A stretch of 50,380 bases of DNA. Origin: Brachyspira alvinipulli ATCC 51933. GTDB lineage: Bacteria > Spirochaetota > Brachyspiria > Brachyspirales > Brachyspiraceae. Of this stretch, positions 2,037 through 23,333 are shown in pieces; the stretch's first letter is position 1; every line of letters begins with the position of its first letter. The notes below the pieces were generated by a model. That model saw nothing but the letters and a program-made list of their open reading frames with translations, was not told where the DNA came from and did no database searches. The position numbers were made by a program, and so were the translations under genes. The stretch covers positions 1 through 50,380 of the forward strand of contig NZ_KI912407.1 of NCBI RefSeq assembly GCF_000518245.1, read 5' to 3'.

Positions 2037-2075
2037 TTTATTCTCCTATTTTTTCTAAAAAATTAATTAGCTAAT

Positions 2076-2111
2076 AAAGCCTAGTATGATAATAAAAACA
2101 TATTAGGCTTT
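2076..2111 (-). terminator. Hairpin terminator after the second TPR gene
   Basis: A 13-bp stem (2076-2088 with 2099-2111, one G-T pair) lies between the stop of the 2172-4448 gene and the start of the upstream-coordinate TPR gene. On the minus strand a T-rich stretch follows only after about 10 bases, so it is a moderate rather than an ideal intrinsic terminator. Confidence 0.5.
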
Positions 2112-2171
2112 TATTTTGTTTATATAATTCATTTTCAACAATATTTTTATAATTTAAATGCTATTGCTATT

Positions 2172-4448
2172 TTAGTACCTCCTACTTGATAATTCGAATA
2201 TACATGCTGTTTCTACTTCTTTCCATAATTCTATATCATTTATTCTTTTTTCTATTAATTTAATAGTTCTTTCTTTTTCGTCTTTAATATCTGGGCTTTT
2301 ATTTGTATATATTTCCAATACTCTTTTATATGTTTCTAAAGATTCATTTTTATTTTCTAACTTTATATATAATTCTGCAATAGAACTCAAATAAAATATA
2401 TTTGATAGATCATTTTTGTCAGTTATTAGGCTTTTATATATTTTTATAAGCTCTTCATAAATTGGAATACTTTTATCTGGTTTTGACACTTTTTGATACA
2501 ATAATGTCAAATATGATAAATCTTTCATATAACAATCTCTATATTTTTCAGTTGTATCTGATATATTTTCATTTTTTAAATCTTCTATTTTTTTAATGCA
2601 TAATTCTATTGATTTATTGTATGTTTTTAATGCATTTTCTTTATCATCAAATTTTAAATGTAAATCTCCTAAATGTTTTAGAAATTGATAATACTCTTTA
2701 TCTTCATCTATATTTTTTTCATAGCACTCTATTATAAAATTATATGTTTCTGCTGATTTTTCTTTATCACCAAATTTTAAATATAAATCCCTTAAATATT
2801 TTAGAAATTGATAGTAATCTTTATCTTCATCTGTATTTTTTTCATAGTACTCTATCATAGAATTATATATTTCTATTGCTTTTTGCCTATCTCCTAGTTT
2901 TACATAAACATCAATTATTTTTTTATAATAAATACTAATATTATCAAAAGAAATTAAATTCCTATTTTTTATAGTTTCTATTGCTTTTTGCTTATCTTCT
3001 AATTTCATATAACTATTCATTAATTCTTCATGCAATTTATCTGCTTTCTCAATACTATATTTTTCAATAAGCTCTATATGTTTATTATAAAATTTAATAG
3101 CCTCATCATATTTTTCTAACTTTTCATAGGCATAAGCAATCTCTTCAAAATAGTATATATGATCACAAATTTCTATGGCCTTATTATAATAATTAATAAC
3201 TTCTTCATAATTTTTTGCATCTTCATAAGTATGAGCAATATCAATATAATAATTTAATTTATTATCTGGATATATTTCTATAAGCATTTTATATATATCT
3301 ATTGCCTTATCATAATTTTTACATTCTCTATATGTTTCAGCAATATTTTTATAATTTTCAATAGATATTTTATTATATAATTCTATAGCTTTATCATATT
3401 CTCCATATCTTTTATATAAGTATGCTAACATTTTACAGTATGCATCTTCTTTATATAAGTCTGATAACTCATTACCAAATGTATATTTTGAATAATGACA
3501 ATATTTTATTATATCAGTGTATGCCTGAACTATATCATTATAAGTTTCACTTCCCTTAAAAATATTATATTTAGATGATATAAGCATTAAAGGAGATGAA
3601 ATATCTTTTTCTATACTTTTTATTAACATTTCTATAGCTTTATCATTTTTACCTAGTTTTTTATATAAATCATACAATGATTTTAATGCATTTAAAGAGT
3701 CATAAAAATTATCATCTAACTCACTTCTTACATTTATATCTAATGCATTTTTATAATTTTTTAAAGCTTCATCATACTGTCCGTTTTTTTCATAGCTTAA
3801 GCCTAAATAATGCCAATAATTAGACTTTTCATAAAAATTATTAAAACAATCTATTGAATCTTCTATAGCCTTTTTAAAATTTTCTATAGCCTCTTGGCTT
3901 TTTCCTAAATATAAATTTATTTGTCCTAATCTATAATAATAATATTCTTTATGGTTATGAATTGTCTCTGTATAATTTATTTCAGCTGCTTTTTTATGAA
4001 ACTCTATAGCTTTATTATAATCCTTTTTTATATTATAATGTATATTTCCTAATAAATACCAATACTCAGAATCTTTATTATTTAATTTAATAGTATTTTC
4101 TAATAATTGAATAATTTTTTCATAATCATTGTAATAGCAATCCCTATAATATGATGCTGCTAAATAGTATAAAACTTTATCTTTTTTATAATCAAGATTC
4201 AAAAGTTTTTTCAATGTTGTTATTACTTTTTTATATTTATCGCTAATATATGAATCGTCATACTGTACCTGTACTAATAAAAATAACAATTCTCTATTAT
4301 TAGAATCTTTTTTTAAATATTCCTCTAATATTTCTTGAGCTTTTTCATGGTAATCTGCATCCTTTTCTTCAAGTTCTTCATTATTTATTCTTTTATTTAT
4401 TATGGCTTCAATTTCTTCTATTGTGTAATTTTTTTTATTATCTTGCAT
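2172..4448 (-). CDS. TPR-repeat protein, 758 aa
   Basis: A 758-residue protein made almost entirely of tetratricopeptide repeats, with helical pairs such as 'YDEALKNYKNALDI', 'YDKAIELYNKI' and 'YEEVINYYNKAIEI'. It is rich in Tyr, Lys, Asn and Glu. There is no signal peptide or transmembrane segment, so a cytosolic scaffold role is likely, but partner and pathway are unknown. An AAGGGG ribosome site precedes the ATG at 4448. It lies immediately upstream of the partial paralogue at 1-2036 on the same strand; the two begin with the same MQDNKKNYTIEEI and share long blocks of the same repeats, indicating tandem duplication. Repeats near residues 490-600 include two nearly identical successive units ('YYQFLKYLRDLYLKFGDKE' and 'YYQFLKHLGDLHLKFDDKE'), a second level of duplication inside the gene. 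Confidence 0.88.
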   Translation of the reverse strand: MQDNKKNYTIEEIEAIINKRINNEELEEKDADYHEKAQEILEEYLKKDSNNRELLFLLVQVQYDDSYISDKYKKVITTLKKLLNLDYKKDKVLYYLAASYYRDCYYNDYEKIIQLLENTIKLNNKDSEYWYLLGNIHYNIKKDYNKAIEFHKKAAEINYTETIHNHKEYYYYRLGQINLYLGKSQEAIENFKKAIEDSIDCFNNFYEKSNYWHYLGLSYEKNGQYDEALKNYKNALDINVRSELDDNFYDSLNALKSLYDLYKKLGKNDKAIEMLIKSIEKDISSPLMLISSKYNIFKGSETYNDIVQAYTDIIKYCHYSKYTFGNELSDLYKEDAYCKMLAYLYKRYGEYDKAIELYNKISIENYKNIAETYRECKNYDKAIDIYKMLIEIYPDNKLNYYIDIAHTYEDAKNYEEVINYYNKAIEICDHIYYFEEIAYAYEKLEKYDEAIKFYNKHIELIEKYSIEKADKLHEELMNSYMKLEDKQKAIETIKNRNLISFDNISIYYKKIIDVYVKLGDRQKAIEIYNSMIEYYEKNTDEDKDYYQFLKYLRDLYLKFGDKEKSAETYNFIIECYEKNIDEDKEYYQFLKHLGDLHLKFDDKENALKTYNKSIELCIKKIEDLKNENISDTTEKYRDCYMKDLSYLTLLYQKVSKPDKSIPIYEELIKIYKSLITDKNDLSNIFYLSSIAELYIKLENKNESLETYKRVLEIYTNKSPDIKDEKERTIKLIEKRINDIELWKEVETACIFELSSRRY

Positions 4449-16205: not shown

Positions 16206-16245
16206 AAAGGACTTATAATTTTTATTGTAAGTCCTTTAATTTTTA
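16206..16245. terminator. Bidirectional terminator, GTPase 2 / DUF445 gene
   Basis: A 13-bp stem with one G-T pair (16206-16218 with 16225-16237) followed by AATTTTTATTT on the plus strand. It overlaps the stop codon of the convergent DUF445 gene and ends both transcripts. Confidence 0.85.
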
Positions 16246-19200
16246 TTTAAAAAAGTATTTTTAATTATACTAATAATCATTGTTAAAGATAAAACGATAG
16301 TAGCTATTATAAGAAATATATTTAAAATATTTGATACACTTGGATTTACAGTATTTAAAGATTTTACTATAACTAGATAAACACCTACAACTCCTCCAAA
16401 CATACCATATAGTTTTAATCTATTTAAATACTCTTTAGCAAAAGAATTAAATACATCATGTATGTTTTTTGGATTCATATTATCTATTTCTTCTTTTGTA
16501 ATAGAAGAAAAATCTATTGAATCAATAATCAAATTAATATCATCTTTGGCTGAATCTATAATTAAATTCAAAAAATAATATTTCGTTTTATCATCTATAA
16601 TATCAGGAAGATCATTTCTTAATTTAGATAATACTTTTTTTAATTCTATAAATGTTAATTTATTTATTAGGTCATTTGATTCCAGCTTATTAAGTACATT
16701 AGTAAGTGATTTCATTAAATTATCTTTATCTATAAAATTATCATCTTTTACAGCATAAAGCAGAAAATTATCCAAATGCTCTTTAGAATATTTTAAAACA
16801 TCTTCAAATACATCATCAAAATATTTTTCTATATTTATAACATCTTTCATATTTCTAGGATATAAAATATTTCCTAAATAATTCTTAATCTCTATAGAAA
16901 TATTCCTGCTGTAATTATAAATATTAATAAATAAATCTCTTATAAATTTATGTAAATCATCATCGGTATTACATAAAAAAGAATCTATATACTTTTCCAT
17001 TATCTTATAATCTATATCATTTATAGCCAATATAAATACTTTATCTGCTACTTTATATATTAAATTTTGATTATTATCTATAACATCATCTAAATATTTC
17101 CTTAAACTGTTATATTCATATAATCTTTCATTTCCAAATATATATGAAATATTTTTAGATAAAATATTATCATCTAAAAATTTAAAAATAATATCCATAA
17201 AATCATTTCTTATATCATTAATAAAAATAGGAAGTTTATTATTTATTAAATTAAGTATTATTTTATCAGTTAAATCTATAACAAAATCATTTTTCAAAGG
17301 AACATTTTCTATAACCATATCCCTAATTTCATATCTATTATTATTCAAAGACTCATTCAATTTTCTATTCATCATAGAAAAAATAAATTCATTATTTGAT
17401 CTTATAAGATTAACTATTTCTCCGTCAAACATTTCCTTTATTTGTTTACTACTCTTTTTGGATATTTCATTATCAAGCAAATCTATTATTATACTAAATA
17501 TTCTATCTCTTACAGATTGAGAATTTACAGCCTTTATAACATTGGGAACAATTATATCTTTAAATCTATTTAAATCTTTAGAATTATTTCTTACTATATT
17601 TTGTATAAAAGTCTTTAAAGGGATAAAATTAATATTTTTTAAAATTGATTCCATCAGTATAATAAAAATATTATCTATATTGCCGTTTATATAAGATATC
17701 ATAGATTTCCTGTTATTTTTATTATTTTTTATAATATCCAAATAATTATTCTTTATTAAACTATTAACAAAATTATATTTTATAGAATTAATATTTCCTG
17801 ATATAATATTATTTATACTTGAAAATATATTTAATTTGTCTATTTTATCATCTTCAAGCATATAATTAAAAAATGTTTTATAATTATCTCTTATTAAATT
17901 ATTTTCTATATCTTCTTTATTACCAATAATTTCAAATATACCCTCTTTTTCCATTAATCTGTCATTAACGAAATTAGACATAGAAACAGCAAATCTGTTT
18001 TTCTCACATGCCACAGCACCCCAAAATACTTTTTTCTTTATTCCAAATAATGGTTCATAAGGCTGAAATATAGAATAAATAGCCAGCACATTCGTTATTA
18101 AACCTATCAATATATAAACTAATGGCTCTATTATATAATTTAATATTCCCAAAGAACTATTAAATGAATTAGTAGGTAAAAAATATGCTGTTGCTAATCC
18201 AAATAAAGCGCCTAATAAAGCCCCTAATATATTTATAGGCTCCAATTCTTTACCCATAAAATCATTGGCCATAGCTGCTATCTCATCTTTATTAAGCTTG
18301 CCCATATTGTTTTTGATAGTCTTTATTACAATGGAATCTATTATATTAGAAATAAAGTTTTTTTCTTTTTCTATAAAACTTACAACTGAATTATAAGAAT
18401 TATTATATAAAAAATCATCTATCTTGCTTTCTTTTTTTATAATCAATTCATTTATATTTAAATTGGAATATTTATCTATTAATTCTTCAAGTAAATTAAA
18501 TAATGATTCTATTATAGAATCAAAATCATTGATAAAGTCATATAAGGTATTATTCTTATACTTACAATAAATACCATATAAATATTTTTTTATACTTGAT
18601 TTATTTTGATTAATTATATTTATGATATTATCAATTTTAATTTCTTTTATATTAATAGAATCAATTTTTCCAAATAATGAACTCCTAGCCTTATTCACAG
18701 ATTCATCTAAATTTGATACTATATAATCAATAATCTCTTTTTCCAAAAAACTATATAGATTATCTATCATATTAGAATCAACAAAAATATTTATTTTTAA
18801 ATTGAAAAATTTTTCTATCCAAGAATCAGGAATTTCTTTTATATTAAATATTATAATATCTTTTGCTATGTTTTTTATATTATCTATATTATTTACATTT
18901 TTTAATATATCCGATATTTTTGTTTTATTCAAATAATTCATTATATCATTTGTAATTGCTTTTATTACCTCATCAACATTATCCTTGTATTTTTCTATAT
19001 ATTCAATAACTTTCTGTACAATTTTATATCTAGCTGATATATCCTGTAAAAATACATTTCTAATGATTTTAACTGTCATCTGAACAAACAATCCATCTAT
19101 CTTTTCTATCTCTTCATCAACAGCACTCTCTATAATAGAATCTAATCTTGATTTATTTTCATTTATTATAGGTATGATAATATCTATAAATTTAGGTAAA

Positions 19201-20096
19201 ATATCTGCAAGAATTAGCTTAAGCCTATTTGCTATATTATGATTTAATAATTCATATACGGTTTTATCAGTATTTTTTAATTTTATATAAAGCTCTTCTA
19301 TAATTTCATCAAGAAGATTTTGAAATTCATTATTTTCTGATAATTTATTAATAATAATTTTTATCTCTTCAGTTTCATATACTGGAAATAAATCTTTTAT
19401 TTTGTTATTAGATAATGATAATAAAAAACTGCAAAAACTTTTTTTTATATCTGAATACTTTATTATATATTTTATTAATGATATTGTTTCTCTTTCTATT
19501 TTATTTTTGTTATCATTATATTTATAAGCAAATATTATATTATCTAAAATTTCTTTTAATATTGTTTTGTATTTATCATCATTTTCATTATATGCTTTAT
19601 ATATTATCTCATTAATTGTTTTATTATCAGAAATATATACAATAAAACTATCAGCTAAATTATTAATAATATTATTGGCTTGATTATCATCTATTATTTC
19701 TGACAATTTTATATTTTGAGATAATTTTTCTAATATAAATGATATACTTTCATTTGTATTTGTTTTGCTCCAATTAATAATATTTTTCTTAGTTTCATTG
19801 AAGCCTATTATATTTTTTATCTTTATAGAAGTTTTTAATATTAATTTATCCTTTAATTTTTTAAAAAACTCTATTATATTATTTTTAAATTTGTCCTTTT
19901 TTATTTCAGCATATATTGAATTATAGTTTATAATTTTTTTAGAAACCATTTTACTGATTTCATCTATAAAACTATCTTTTTTCCTTGCTATTATTCCATT
20001 ATTAGAGAATAACTTTTTTAATGCGACAGTATTAGTATAATAACCAGATACAGCACCAAGAAAAGCACCAAATATTAACTGAAGCAATAAATCCAT
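16236..20096 (-). CDS. Double-length DUF445 membrane protein, 1286 aa
   Basis: The N-terminal helix 'GAFLGAVSGYYTNTVALKKLF' is the DUF445 signature (a glycine-rich helix ending in a TN-x-x-A-x-K-x-LF motif). A second copy occurs near residues 640-690: a helix pair 'ILGALLGALFGLATAYF' and 'YILIGLITNVLAIYSIF', followed by 'QPYEPLFGIKKKVFWGAV'. A final helix pair lies at the C-terminus. Between them are about 1000 residues of Asn/Ile/Lys-rich helices. Ordinary DUF445 proteins are about 400 residues, so this looks like two fused modules. The family is membrane anchored with a large soluble domain of unknown function. The ribosome site is AGGGG before ATG 20096. It is 17 bp from the gene at 20114-21193, probably one operon. 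Confidence 0.8.
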   Translation of the reverse strand: MDLLLQLIFGAFLGAVSGYYTNTVALKKLFSNNGIIARKKDSFIDEISKMVSKKIINYNSIYAEIKKDKFKNNIIEFFKKLKDKLILKTSIKIKNIIGFNETKKNIINWSKTNTNESISFILEKLSQNIKLSEIIDDNQANNIINNLADSFIVYISDNKTINEIIYKAYNENDDKYKTILKEILDNIIFAYKYNDNKNKIERETISLIKYIIKYSDIKKSFCSFLLSLSNNKIKDLFPVYETEEIKIIINKLSENNEFQNLLDEIIEELYIKLKNTDKTVYELLNHNIANRLKLILADILPKFIDIIIPIINENKSRLDSIIESAVDEEIEKIDGLFVQMTVKIIRNVFLQDISARYKIVQKVIEYIEKYKDNVDEVIKAITNDIMNYLNKTKISDILKNVNNIDNIKNIAKDIIIFNIKEIPDSWIEKFFNLKINIFVDSNMIDNLYSFLEKEIIDYIVSNLDESVNKARSSLFGKIDSINIKEIKIDNIINIINQNKSSIKKYLYGIYCKYKNNTLYDFINDFDSIIESLFNLLEELIDKYSNLNINELIIKKESKIDDFLYNNSYNSVVSFIEKEKNFISNIIDSIVIKTIKNNMGKLNKDEIAAMANDFMGKELEPINILGALLGALFGLATAYFLPTNSFNSSLGILNYIIEPLVYILIGLITNVLAIYSIFQPYEPLFGIKKKVFWGAVACEKNRFAVSMSNFVNDRLMEKEGIFEIIGNKEDIENNLIRDNYKTFFNYMLEDDKIDKLNIFSSINNIISGNINSIKYNFVNSLIKNNYLDIIKNNKNNRKSMISYINGNIDNIFIILMESILKNINFIPLKTFIQNIVRNNSKDLNRFKDIIVPNVIKAVNSQSVRDRIFSIIIDLLDNEISKKSSKQIKEMFDGEIVNLIRSNNEFIFSMMNRKLNESLNNNRYEIRDMVIENVPLKNDFVIDLTDKIILNLINNKLPIFINDIRNDFMDIIFKFLDDNILSKNISYIFGNERLYEYNSLRKYLDDVIDNNQNLIYKVADKVFILAINDIDYKIMEKYIDSFLCNTDDDLHKFIRDLFINIYNYSRNISIEIKNYLGNILYPRNMKDVINIEKYFDDVFEDVLKYSKEHLDNFLLYAVKDDNFIDKDNLMKSLTNVLNKLESNDLINKLTFIELKKVLSKLRNDLPDIIDDKTKYYFLNLIIDSAKDDINLIIDSIDFSSITKEEIDNMNPKNIHDVFNSFAKEYLNRLKLYGMFGGVVGVYLVIVKSLNTVNPSVSNILNIFLIIATIVLSLTMIISIIKNTFLNKN

Positions 20097-20113: not shown

Positions 20114-21193
20114 TTATTTCTCAAATGATTCCAATTCTTCACAAAGTTTTAAAAAATCTTCATAAACTGTTATAGATTGTAAAAATCTTAAATCAAGCAT
20201 GTATCCAGAATCAATATGTTTGAAAAATTCAGCATCCCAAAGCTCCGTTTGAATAAAACCTTTTTTGTAATCATATTTATAAGGTTCAAATTTGAATGGA
20301 TAAGCTCTGAAATATTTAACTTTAGCAAAACATAATTTATATATCCTAAATAATATTCCAATAGTATCATTTCTATTAAAAAATTTATCTGTAAATACTA
20401 AAGTTTTATGAGAATTCTCCTTTTCCTGATACCAAGCATTATTCTCCTTTTTAAGATCATATTTTTTTATTATATTCTCCTTATCTGATGAATAAAGTGA
20501 AGTAAAATCATAATCATATCTCACTTCTTCATTACTATACTCTATATTATCGCATGCTATATAAAAAAAGCTGTTTGTATCATCCGGCTTCATCTTTATC
20601 ATTATAGAATATTTATCATTTATTATATTTTTATAACTGCTATTAATATACTTTATATCATCATCATTACATACATAAAACACATCATACTCATTAGGAC
20701 ATGCATTAAAATATTTAGAACATTGAACAAAACTAGCATTCTTGAAAATGATTTCTATGCTATGATAACAGCTTAAATCATTGCTGCCTATAATATGCAG
20801 GTCTTTTTCATAGTTAGAAATCATAAAATCAAGCCACATATTATCCTTTATTGAATCATTTATACCTTTTATTTTGTTCGTTATATCCATAAAATTAATA
20901 TTCTCTATATAAGATTTAAACTCAGCCTCCATATATTTAAAATTTATAAAAGCAACCTTATCATCATGCTCCAAAACTTCTATATAAATAGCATCATTTT
21001 CTATAAAATAAAAAAGATATTTTCTGTTATCATTAAATAATAAATATCCGTTTTCTGTTTCTTTTATTTCAGCATTCAGATTAGATTTTATGTATTTCAT
21101 TAAAGAAAACATTGCTCTCTTATCATCAGCTGCATTGTTATAAAGTATTTTTAGTAATTTGTTTTTCTCATCTAAATATGCTATTTTATACAT
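20114..21193 (-). CDS. Unknown cytosolic protein, 359 aa
   Basis: Not recognised. The protein begins MYKIAYLDEKNKLLKILY and has no signal peptide or membrane helix. It is rich in Tyr, Asp, Asn and Lys, with alternating hydrophobic residues suggesting beta/alpha folds. Several Cys (for example in 'FVQCSKYFNACPNEYD' and 'FFYIACDN') are scattered without a metal-site pattern. A GGATG ribosome site precedes ATG 21193. The stop is 17 bp before the start of the DUF445 gene, so the two are probably co-transcribed and may act together. A palindromic TATACTATAATAGTATA stretch upstream (about 21222-21240) may hold its promoter. Confidence 0.6.
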   Translation of the reverse strand: MYKIAYLDEKNKLLKILYNNAADDKRAMFSLMKYIKSNLNAEIKETENGYLLFNDNRKYLFYFIENDAIYIEVLEHDDKVAFINFKYMEAEFKSYIENINFMDITNKIKGINDSIKDNMWLDFMISNYEKDLHIIGSNDLSCYHSIEIIFKNASFVQCSKYFNACPNEYDVFYVCNDDDIKYINSSYKNIINDKYSIMIKMKPDDTNSFFYIACDNIEYSNEEVRYDYDFTSLYSSDKENIIKKYDLKKENNAWYQEKENSHKTLVFTDKFFNRNDTIGILFRIYKLCFAKVKYFRAYPFKFEPYKYDYKKGFIQTELWDAEFFKHIDSGYMLDLRFLQSITVYEDFLKLCEELESFEK

Positions 21194-21273: not shown

Positions 21274-21300
21274 GGAACTTTTTTATTTTTTATTCGTCTA
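21274..21300 (+). promoter_or_regulatory. ECF-sigma promoter 1
   Basis: GGAAC (21274-21278, followed by a T-run) and CGTCTA (21295-21300) with a 16-bp spacer, 43 bp before the ATG at 21343. This is the classical ECF-type GGAAC/CGTC promoter. The same layout recurs at 21746-21772, and the operon encodes an ECF sigma factor. Confidence 0.8.
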
Positions 21301-21342
21301 AAAAGCTAAATAAGATATGTTATATGGAGGCATTAATGATTT

Positions 21343-21744
21343 ATGAAAAAAATTGTTATTATTTTGTTATTTGCTTTTTTTAATATGTATAATTTATATG
21401 CTGATGATAATTACAAAATAAATGATAATTCATTAAAAGTTTTAAAAGATGCTGGAATAACAATAACCAAAGAACAAAAAGAGAATATCATTACAATAGT
21501 AAAAAAATATTCTTCAGATGCTAAAAAGATTTTATATGAAATAAAAAATATAGACTCAAAACTTAATAATGAATATAAAAAAGTTGACGTTAATTTAGAA
21601 ATAATAAAAGAATTAATGTTTGAAAAGAAGAGAAAAGAAGCCGATTTTGATTATCTTATTATGTCATGTGATTTGGATATATTGGAATTATTTTCAGATA
21701 TTGATATAAAAAAGATTAAATATTACATTTTATTTAAAAAATAA
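21343..21744 (+). CDS. Secreted Spy/CpxP-like protein, 133 aa
   Basis: A small protein with a signal peptide (MKKIVIILLFAFFNMYNLYADD). The mature part is helical and charged: 'LKDAGITITKEQKENIITIVKKY', then 'LDSKLNNEYKKVDVN' style helices and 'LMFEKKRKEADFDYL'. The layout (a 'gI-x-LT-x-E-Q' start, two long helices, a helix ending in KKRKEA) matches that of the next gene, a better Spy/CpxP relative. Such periplasmic proteins act as chaperones or sensors of envelope damage, and are often made with ECF sigma factors. The 'LTPEQ' sequence of canonical family members is degenerate here (ITKEQ). GGAGG lies 12 bases before ATG 21343. It is driven by ECF promoter 1. Confidence 0.65.
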   Translation: MKKIVIILLFAFFNMYNLYADDNYKINDNSLKVLKDAGITITKEQKENIITIVKKYSSDAKKILYEIKNIDSKLNNEYKKVDVNLEIIKELMFEKKRKEADFDYLIMSCDLDILELFSDIDIKKIKYYILFKK

Positions 21745-21745
21745 G

Positions 21746-21772
21746 GGAACTTTTTTCGATTATTGTCGTCTA
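21746..21772 (+). promoter_or_regulatory. ECF-sigma promoter 2
   Basis: GGAAC (21746-21750, followed by a T-run) and CGTCTA (21767-21772), spacer 16 bp, about 55-60 bp before the start codon. The elements and spacing match promoter 1. It begins 2 bp after the stop codon of the preceding gene, and drives the second Spy-like gene with the sigma/anti-sigma pair, implying autoregulation. Confidence 0.8.
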
Positions 21773-21832
21773 ATATATAAAATACAATAAGATGATATGA
21801 GAGATGGGCGTATTTAAGGAGAAATCGTGTAT

Positions 21833-22279
21833 ATGAATAAATTGTTTTATAGTATATTTTTAATATTAGTACTGTCTTTATCGCTTTTTGGTCAGCCTGG
21901 TCCTAAAGGTCCTGGTCATCATGGTCCAAGACATAGAGGCGGTCCTCAATTTGAGAAAAGATTAGGACATGATCCTTTACAGTTTTTTAGAAAAATAGGT
22001 ATAGTACTTACAGATGAACAAGCTGATAAAATGTACGATATAGCCATTAATTTTATAACACAAGAAGAACCTATTAGATTGGAAATAGACAGAATAGAAA
22101 ATAGTATAAGAATGGAACTTATGAAAGAAAATGCTAATAGAAATGTATTAAAAGAATTAATAAGTAGAAAAAAAGAACAGGAGGCTTTGAGAGATTATTT
22201 GAGAATAGTCAGAGATTTGGATATAATAAACGTATTAACTCCGGAACAAAAAGCCCAATTTAATAGCAGGATGAGATAA
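21833..22279 (+). CDS. Secreted Spy/CpxP-family protein, Gly/His/Pro-rich N-terminus
   Basis: 148 residues. The signal peptide 'MNKLFYSIFLILVLSLSLFG' is followed by a Gly-Pro-His-rich stretch ('PGPKGPGHHGPRHRGGPQF'), a possible metal-binding tail. Helices follow with 'IGIVLTDEQADKMYDIA' and, near the end, 'VLTPEQKAQFNSRMR'. The LT-x-x-Q motifs and helical hairpin fit the Spy/CpxP/CnrX periplasmic family (chaperone or heavy-metal sensor). The ATG at 21833 has AAGGAG 11 bases upstream. A GTG at 21827 has the same site 5 bases upstream and would add two residues. It lies 8 bp before the ECF sigma gene and probably shares its transcript, making it a likely regulon member and stress reporter. Confidence 0.75.
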   Translation: MNKLFYSIFLILVLSLSLFGQPGPKGPGHHGPRHRGGPQFEKRLGHDPLQFFRKIGIVLTDEQADKMYDIAINFITQEEPIRLEIDRIENSIRMELMKENANRNVLKELISRKKEQEALRDYLRIVRDLDIINVLTPEQKAQFNSRMR

Positions 22280-22287
22280 TTATAAAT

Positions 22288-22839
22288 ATGAGCGGTGTAA
22301 ATATTATGGCTTATGAAGATAATATAGATGCATTTAAAATAGGCAATGAAGAAGCTTATAAAGAACTTATGGAAATGTATAAAAAACCATTATTTAATTT
22401 GGTTTATTCTATTATTTCCAATAAAGATGAGGCTGAAGAGATAGTGCAGGATGTTTTTGTAAGTTTCTATATAAAAAGAGAGAGTTTTGAAGGAAGATCA
22501 AAGATATACACTTGGCTGTACAGAGTATCTTTCAATAGAGCTGTTGACCATATAAGAAAAAAAGAAAGAGAAAAAAAATACAGACTAAAAGAATATAGGA
22601 CTTCTGAAGTTCAAGACTCTGATAATGATAATAGTATAAATAAAATTATACTTGCAGAAGCACTTGAAAAATTGGAGGATGATTTTCGTATACCGCTTGT
22701 TATGGCCGAATATGAAAATTATTCCTACAATGAAATCTCTGAGAAACTAGATTTGCCGGTTAATACCGTTAGAACTAGAATATTCAGAGCTAGAAAAAAA
22801 CTTTTATCTATTATGAAAAAAATGGGGGTGAGCTTATGA
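22288..22839 (+). CDS. ECF-type RNA polymerase sigma factor
   Basis: 183 residues. Region 2 is 'YKKPLFNLVYSIISNKDEAEEIVQDVF' and 'IYTWLYRVSFNRAVDHIRKKERE'. Region 4 is 'ALEKLEDDFRIPLVMAEYENYSYNEISEKL' then 'PVNTVRTRIFRARKKL', the helix-turn-helix that reads the -35 box. There is no region 1 or 3, as expected for the extracytoplasmic-function class. The frame starts at ATG 22288; an in-frame ATG at 22306 has a better-placed GGTG and may be the true start. The ATGA overlap with the anti-sigma gene couples their translation. The promoters at 21274 and 21746 are of the type such a factor uses, so I infer it controls its own operon and the Spy-like genes, and perhaps the RND pump. Confidence 0.93.
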   Translation: MSGVNIMAYEDNIDAFKIGNEEAYKELMEMYKKPLFNLVYSIISNKDEAEEIVQDVFVSFYIKRESFEGRSKIYTWLYRVSFNRAVDHIRKKEREKKYRLKEYRTSEVQDSDNDNSINKIILAEALEKLEDDFRIPLVMAEYENYSYNEISEKLDLPVNTVRTRIFRARKKLLSIMKKMGVSL

Positions 22840-23333
22840 AAAATAATCATGAATATTATGAAATGCTTATAAGCAGATATATGGACAATGATTTGGAAAG
22901 CGATGAAATTTTTGAAATGGAAAAACATTTATCTACTTGCAAATCATGCCAAAAATTTAGAGATGAACTCAATTCTATGTCATCAATACTATCAGGAAAA
23001 AAACCTATTGTAGTACATAAAAAGAGTATTTTTAATAAAAGCAAACTACCAGCATACATAGGTTCTATAGCAGCAGCATTATTATTGTTTGTAGGAATAT
23101 CTATTGTTTATAATAATCCAAATTCCAGTATAAATAATGATGATACAAAATTAATTGTTTCAGACTTGAATAATTCTGTAATCAATACAAGTATAGATAA
23201 TACTTTTACTGATGATGATTATACTCCATTATCAAGCTACTTTAGCTACAGCGATCAAAATGATGAAGGCGAAGAGGCAGCAACAGGTGAAATATCTATA
23301 ATGTCTGCATATATATACTATATGGGAAAATAA
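22836..23333 (+). CDS. Membrane anti-sigma factor with zinc-finger domain
   Basis: 165 residues. The N-terminal domain has the H-x3-C-x2-C motif of the ZAS/zf-HC2 fold (H31, C35, C38 in 'EKHLSTCKSCQKF'), which binds the cognate ECF sigma factor. One membrane helix lies at about residues 71-92, followed by a periplasmic Asn/Asp/Ser-rich tail ending 'MSAYIYYMGK'. It would hold the sigma factor at the inner membrane until an envelope signal triggers release. The start overlaps the sigma stop by 4 bases (ATGA) and has GGGGGTG upstream. It is the last gene of the operon; the stop is 6 bp from the convergent purN stop, with no clear hairpin between. Confidence 0.9.
   Translation: MKNNHEYYEMLISRYMDNDLESDEIFEMEKHLSTCKSCQKFRDELNSMSSILSGKKPIVVHKKSIFNKSKLPAYIGSIAAALLLFVGISIVYNNPNSSINNDDTKLIVSDLNNSVINTSIDNTFTDDDYTPLSSYFSYSDQNDEGEEAATGEISIMSAYIYYMGK

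Follow-up and report, generated by a model that had tools for sequence, protein, structure and literature searches.

In Brachyspira alvinipulli ATCC 51933, the unit analyzed here is in all probability (roughly 0.87) an autoregulated switch composed of an extracytoplasmic function (ECF) sigma factor and a zinc-finger anti-sigma factor, which would control a regulon of envelope genes. The unit lies in a window of 50,380 nucleotides (contig NZ_KI912407.1, positions 1 to 50,380), a term used here for the whole stretch of DNA analyzed, within a genome of 3.42 Mb. The evidence comes from two promoter-like boxes in the window, the recurrence of the same box across this genome and the genus, the genes following it, and the conservation of the sigma operon.

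Two predicted ECF-type promoters were located on the plus strand: P1 (21274..21301), with GGAAC as the -35 element (21274-21278), a spacer of 16 bases, and CGTCTAA as the -10 element (21295-21301), and P2 (21746..21773), built identically (GGAAC, 21746-21750; N16; CGTCTAA, 21767-21773). They are the only two exact copies of GGAAC-N16-CGTCTAA in the whole window, and both coordinates and sequence bear out the pair of boxes proposed in an earlier sequence-only reading, with the T-run counted inside the 16-base spacer. P1 and P2 were also the only matches in the window to the looser pattern GGAAC-N(14-19)-CGTC, as compared with 0.03 ± 0.17 matches in dinucleotide shuffles, none of which (0/100) contained two or more; the earlier argument that both copies are unlikely to have arisen by chance in such AT-rich DNA (GC content 26.3%) therefore holds. 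P2 starts one base past the stop codon of gene 1, the gene following P1. Since no terminator-like site was found between positions 20900 and 23500 of the window, transcripts from P1 could read through into the operon behind P2. Upstream of the unit, the minus strand encodes an unusually long DUF445-type protein of 1286 aa (window 16236-20096).

The genome-wide search for GGAAC-N16-CGTCTA that had been proposed as a check returned eight exact sites, against about 0.24 expected from base composition and two matches to the reversed pattern, and it succeeded in 25 sister species as well. Although the pattern demanded GGAAC alone, all eight sites carried GGAACTTTT. Allowing a variable spacer added two N17 sites and one N18 site; the latter (C4:306296) lacked a plausible promoter context and was dropped. 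Sites with one mismatch are not claimed, because the five extra matches were outnumbered by 14 reversed controls. Two of the ten N16/N17 sites are P1 and P2, which precede the window genes. Of the remaining eight, four lie before Spy-like genes (C1:405917 and C5:91978; C4:118137, with a Pro-rich product; and C12:18355, which is frameshifted). The other four lead to a Metal_resist cluster rich in Gly, Tyr, and Arg (C2:400170), a gene for a secreted rhodanese (C5:77704), a small lipoprotein gene with that of a 1041-aa RND pump behind it (C6:139613), and a gene for a DUF4405 membrane protein adjoining a P-type ATPase (C12:63170). At C12:18355, as at G022:C9:80029 in another genome, the Spy-like gene runs out of frame past its signal peptide behind an intact promoter.

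Across 26 Brachyspira species, GGAACTT-N14-CGTCTA matched 130 times and its reversed control never. With the spacing freed to N(9-19), 198 matches and one control were obtained, distributed over N14 (130), N15 (62), and the other nine spacings together (6). Counted from GGAAC, N14 and N15 correspond to N16 and N17, and 192 of the 198 matches thus use one of these two spacings. About 120 sites were retrieved, and 124 distinct N16/N17 sites were analyzed. An open reading frame (ORF) follows 118 of them, in 113 cases with its start no more than 150 nt away (median 49 nt). Bases that the pattern left free were nearly invariant: A after CGTCTA at 123/124 sites, and T at positions 8 and 9 at 121/124 and 116/124, respectively, then mostly TAA. 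Because the species are related, these sites do not count as independent observations, and the case leans more on the spacing rule and the reversed control. Outside the Brachyspiraceae, six matches against 25 controls in 102 genomes amount to background. The full box is wider than first described, reading GGAACTTTT ... CGTCTAATA. The promoter model put forward from the window is usable, as the matches in the genome and the genus attest, but it needed revision: the box had been drawn too narrowly, the spacer is 16 or 17 bases, and the regulon is larger.

As predicted from the genes following these promoters, the regulon extends beyond this locus to a scattered family of Spy-like proteins, efflux systems, and other envelope genes, and is unusually weighted to Spy-like proteins. 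Among the 118 first genes, about 68-74 are Spy-like, 14 encode small lipoproteins, 12 secreted rhodaneses, and four TolC-like proteins, the latter leading TolC-MFP-RND operons at those sites for which a longer stretch was read; single genes or small groups encode PepSY_like, DUF305, and DUF4405 proteins, a chemoreceptor-like protein, and an RND pump. A crude hydrophobicity test classified 113 of the 118 products as exported or membrane-inserted. In HHalign comparisons with the Spy family of the operon, the Pro-rich, gene-1, and MFK families reached probabilities of 95-99%, and the Gly/Tyr/Arg and FIYN families 93% and 81%, respectively; for the YYY family (three members), HHalign gave no support for joining it to the operon Spy family. 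Counterparts of the C5:91978 site in three other genomes (L245, L246, and L247 in G009, G015, and G018) keep the promoter and a leader rich in repeats resembling GGAGGTTTATG, with no long ORF within the next 400 nt; they may be remnants of a Spy gene or encode an RNA that has been kept.

Behind P2, the genes follow in the order operon Spy, ECF sigma factor, anti-sigma factor, all on the plus strand. The sigma factor (22288..22839; 183 aa) contains sigma-70 regions 2 and 4 only (PF04542, PF08281) and matches TIGR02937 above its cut-off, while its top NCBIfam matches include SigW and RpoE models, all under their cut-offs. A cognate anti-sigma gene adjoins it, and the predicted self-directed promoter before its operon is seen as a sequence feature. 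The anti-sigma gene (22836..23333) and the sigma gene share 4 bp at the sigma stop, as they do in the aligned species. The anti-sigma product belongs to the zinc-finger (ZAS) type: it matches PF13490 (zf-HC2) above the cut-off, carries HX3CX2C in its N-terminal domain (H31-X3-C35-X2-C38, residues 31-38), a motif retained in 25/25 aligned orthologues, and has a single hydrophobic span peaking at residues 73-91 on the Kyte-Doolittle scale. The sigma factor and zinc-finger anti-sigma factor that had been proposed behind the second box are thus borne out by domain matches.

The earlier description of the proteins behind both boxes as Spy/CpxP-like stands for both in profile and modeled fold, but gene 1 is not classed with the LTXXQ family. 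The operon Spy (21833..22279; 148 aa; ATG start at 21833, with GTG at 21827 also possible) is a predicted periplasmic LTXXQ protein, matching PF07813 with 25.2 bits against a cut-off of 24.3 (E 2.7e-5) and the NCBIfam Spy model at 5e-6, under that model's cut-off. Gene 1 (21343..21744, plus strand) encodes a predicted secreted protein of 133 aa for which the Pfam search gave no LTXXQ match; it is therefore named Spy-like here, in view of its related profile and modeled fold. Its family aligned with the operon Spy family at an HHalign probability of 98.5% (E 3e-15), whereas rhodanese and lipoprotein controls did not exceed 0.2%. The two models show one and the same helical-hairpin fold, and among solved structures Spy, CpxP, ZraP, and CnrX were the top matches to both, that of gene 1 resembling ZraP, CpxP, and CnrX/NccX, and that of the operon protein Spy, CpxP, ZraP, and CnrX. 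Since the Foldseek E-values were weak (0.02-1) and unrelated helical hairpins reach Z 8-9, the fold backs the family assignment and does not imply function.

The resemblance to CnrX, a protein of the CnrYXH nickel/cobalt response of Cupriavidus metallidurans, raises another reading, in which the unit is a CnrYXH-type metal sensor, the operon Spy acts on the anti-sigma factor as CnrX does, and metal instead of misfolding is the signal. We consider this unlikely, though less so than the other alternatives weighed below; it is a matter of the signal and does not conflict with the promoter model. As in CnrYXH, an ECF sigma factor, a membrane anti-sigma factor, and a periplasmic helical-hairpin protein are encoded together, and the operon Spy model fits CnrX about as well as Spy or CpxP (Z 10.0, 10.4, and 10.2, which are tied; CnrX chains, Z 9-10). 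Several regulon proteins match Metal_resist (PF13801), one target adjoins a P-type ATPase, a DUF305 protein is among the targets, and His-rich members occur among the Spy proteins; however, the Bae and Cpx systems respond to metals too, so these metal-linked targets do not discriminate. Against the metal-sensor reading, sequence searches placed CpxP and Spy above CnrX, and the anti-sigma factor is a zf-HC2 protein with HX3CX2C, whereas CnrY is not known to carry a zinc finger. A further difference from CnrYXH is the predicted output, which consists mainly of Spy-like proteins. From this analysis, the operon Spy may be a chaperone only, a CpxP-like brake, or a CnrX-like sensor.

The autoregulation proposed for the unit is supported by its conservation. 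The Spy-sigma-anti-sigma order together with P2 was found in 26/26 Brachyspira species, each with an orthologue of the ECF sigma factor, the box being exact in 25 and a GAAAC variant in one (G019). In the sister genera, the same gene order occurs with an exact box in both genomes of one genus (g2) and with an N17 box in another (g3). A related family (f2, two genomes) keeps the gene order; the box is poorer in one genome, and in the second no box was found before the Spy-sigma-anti-sigma operon. In one single-contig genome (G003:C1:2136395-2136930; L047/L048), the reading frame of the sigma gene is interrupted within an A-run and the promoters are kept, reflecting either a sequencing error or a real loss. 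In a member of candidate division WOR-1 (L223, ~2059-3700), a distant sigma homologue is followed in one row by genes for a single-span and a Spy-like protein and by a TolC-like frame, which suggests that the association predates Brachyspira and extends beyond it.

The genome encodes one other ECF sigma factor (C2:535426-535899), and the motif could be a genuine ECF promoter read by that factor, alone or shared, the Spy-linked sigma factor being one of its targets instead of the principal reader. Its distribution would fit, as a search of the class found it in each of 31 genomes, and assignment of the motif by phylogenetic co-occurrence fails because both ECF sigma factors are universal in the class. 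What separates them is the neighborhood: GGAAC-N(15-18)-CGTC was found near the other sigma factor in none of 30 genomes (0/30), whereas the Spy-linked operon carries the box in 26/26 species, and ECF sigma factors are usually autoregulated (PMC3107203). We therefore regard the other factor as an improbable reader and, given the conservation of P2, the boxless neighborhood of the other sigma gene, and the background level outside the Brachyspiraceae, infer that the motif is read by the Spy-linked sigma factor.

Still less credible is a reading of the box as a conserved leader element, or as the target of a repressor or activator, instead of a sequence recognized by a sigma factor. Its blocks are of the ECF -35/-10 type, held at a fixed distance of 16-17 bp by an AT-rich spacer without evident dyad symmetry, and it is linked to an ECF sigma gene and lies, at the median given above, shortly before start codons. 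P1 with gene 1 is limited to 17/26 Brachyspira species; in the 16 of them that were measured, P2 starts 0-2 nt past the gene-1 stop. In view of this limited occurrence and of the homology between gene 1 and the adjacent operon Spy, P1 may well have originated by local duplication of a promoter-plus-Spy segment. That the two boxes are alike for this reason only and otherwise functionless is practically dismissed by further copies of the box elsewhere in this genome, unlinked to the window, and before unrelated genes across the genus; the box is maintained by selection.

Two further genomes contain motif copies of another kind. In G001 (G001:C1:1631481 and 1631650; L244/L287) and G002 (G002:C14:429 and 586; L286), two tandem exact copies lie on the minus strand, and within ~100 nt of each comes a strong terminator hairpin, with no ORF. 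TTTTTTCATATKAGACTC is common to these stretches in both genomes, the first stretch is 93% identical between them, and two of the stretches gave folding z-scores of -3.0 and -4.5. A genus-wide search yielded convincing copies in G001 and G002 only, the rest being weak AT-rich matches. The stretches look like candidate sigma-dependent small RNAs and are offered as a lead, not as a result.

We propose that, under the ECF/zinc-finger switch, the membrane-anchored anti-sigma factor would hold the sigma factor in the resting state, as in established ECF/ZAS biology. Envelope stress, a signal suggested by the nature of the targets (misfolding of periplasmic protein, a toxic metal or amphiphile, or both), would free the sigma factor, which would direct RNA polymerase to GGAACTTTT-N12/13-CGTCTAATA. 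P2, probably with read-through from P1, would then yield more Spy, sigma factor, and anti-sigma factor, and the approximately ten promoters of this genome would supply secreted Spy/CpxP-fold proteins, the RND efflux pump, a periplasmic rhodanese, a small lipoprotein, and the DUF4405 membrane protein. A bolder version, in which this single ECF sigma factor runs a combined Bae/Cpx/sigma-E-like response with an expanded Spy-like family, RND efflux, small RNAs in one lineage, and the operon Spy as a feedback sensor acting on the anti-sigma factor, is conceivable but less likely than not.

Several known systems share parts of this arrangement. The E. coli BaeR regulon combines a Spy-type periplasmic chaperone with RND/TolC efflux (PMC2731931), and the output of BaeSR/Cpx (spy, mdtABCD, acrD, tolC, cpxP) is of the same kind as that predicted here; in E. 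coli, however, control is exerted by two-component systems, whereas in Brachyspira it would lie with an ECF sigma factor and a zinc-finger anti-sigma factor, and the Spy-like genes form a scattered multi-member family. E. coli sigma-E (RpoE) and the Bacillus SigW/SigM-type regulons resemble the Brachyspira system in their GGAAC/GAAC-type -35 element, 16-17 bp spacer, and autoregulation, but by curated cut-offs the Brachyspira sigma factor is not an RpoE or SigW orthologue, and both the regulated genes and the type of anti-sigma factor are different. Caulobacter SigF-NrsF likewise governs a small dispersed ECF regulon, in response to heavy metals, from one conserved promoter before every target; there, the negative regulator NrsF is of a different, cysteine-based type, and under metal stress SigF shows no strong autoregulation (PMC3511200). 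In the literature searched, we found neither a published regulon of a Brachyspira ECF sigma factor or Brachyspira transcription starts, nor a publication joining Spy/CpxP with an ECF sigma factor and its anti-sigma factor.

The strict promoter allows approximately ten target promoters to be listed for this genome and makes a prediction that can be tested in each Brachyspira species. It would place RND efflux and periplasmic proteins resembling chaperones under a single sigma factor, a Bae-like output attained through another kind of regulator, and may thereby bear on the tolerance of gut spirochaetes to bile, metals, and antimicrobials.
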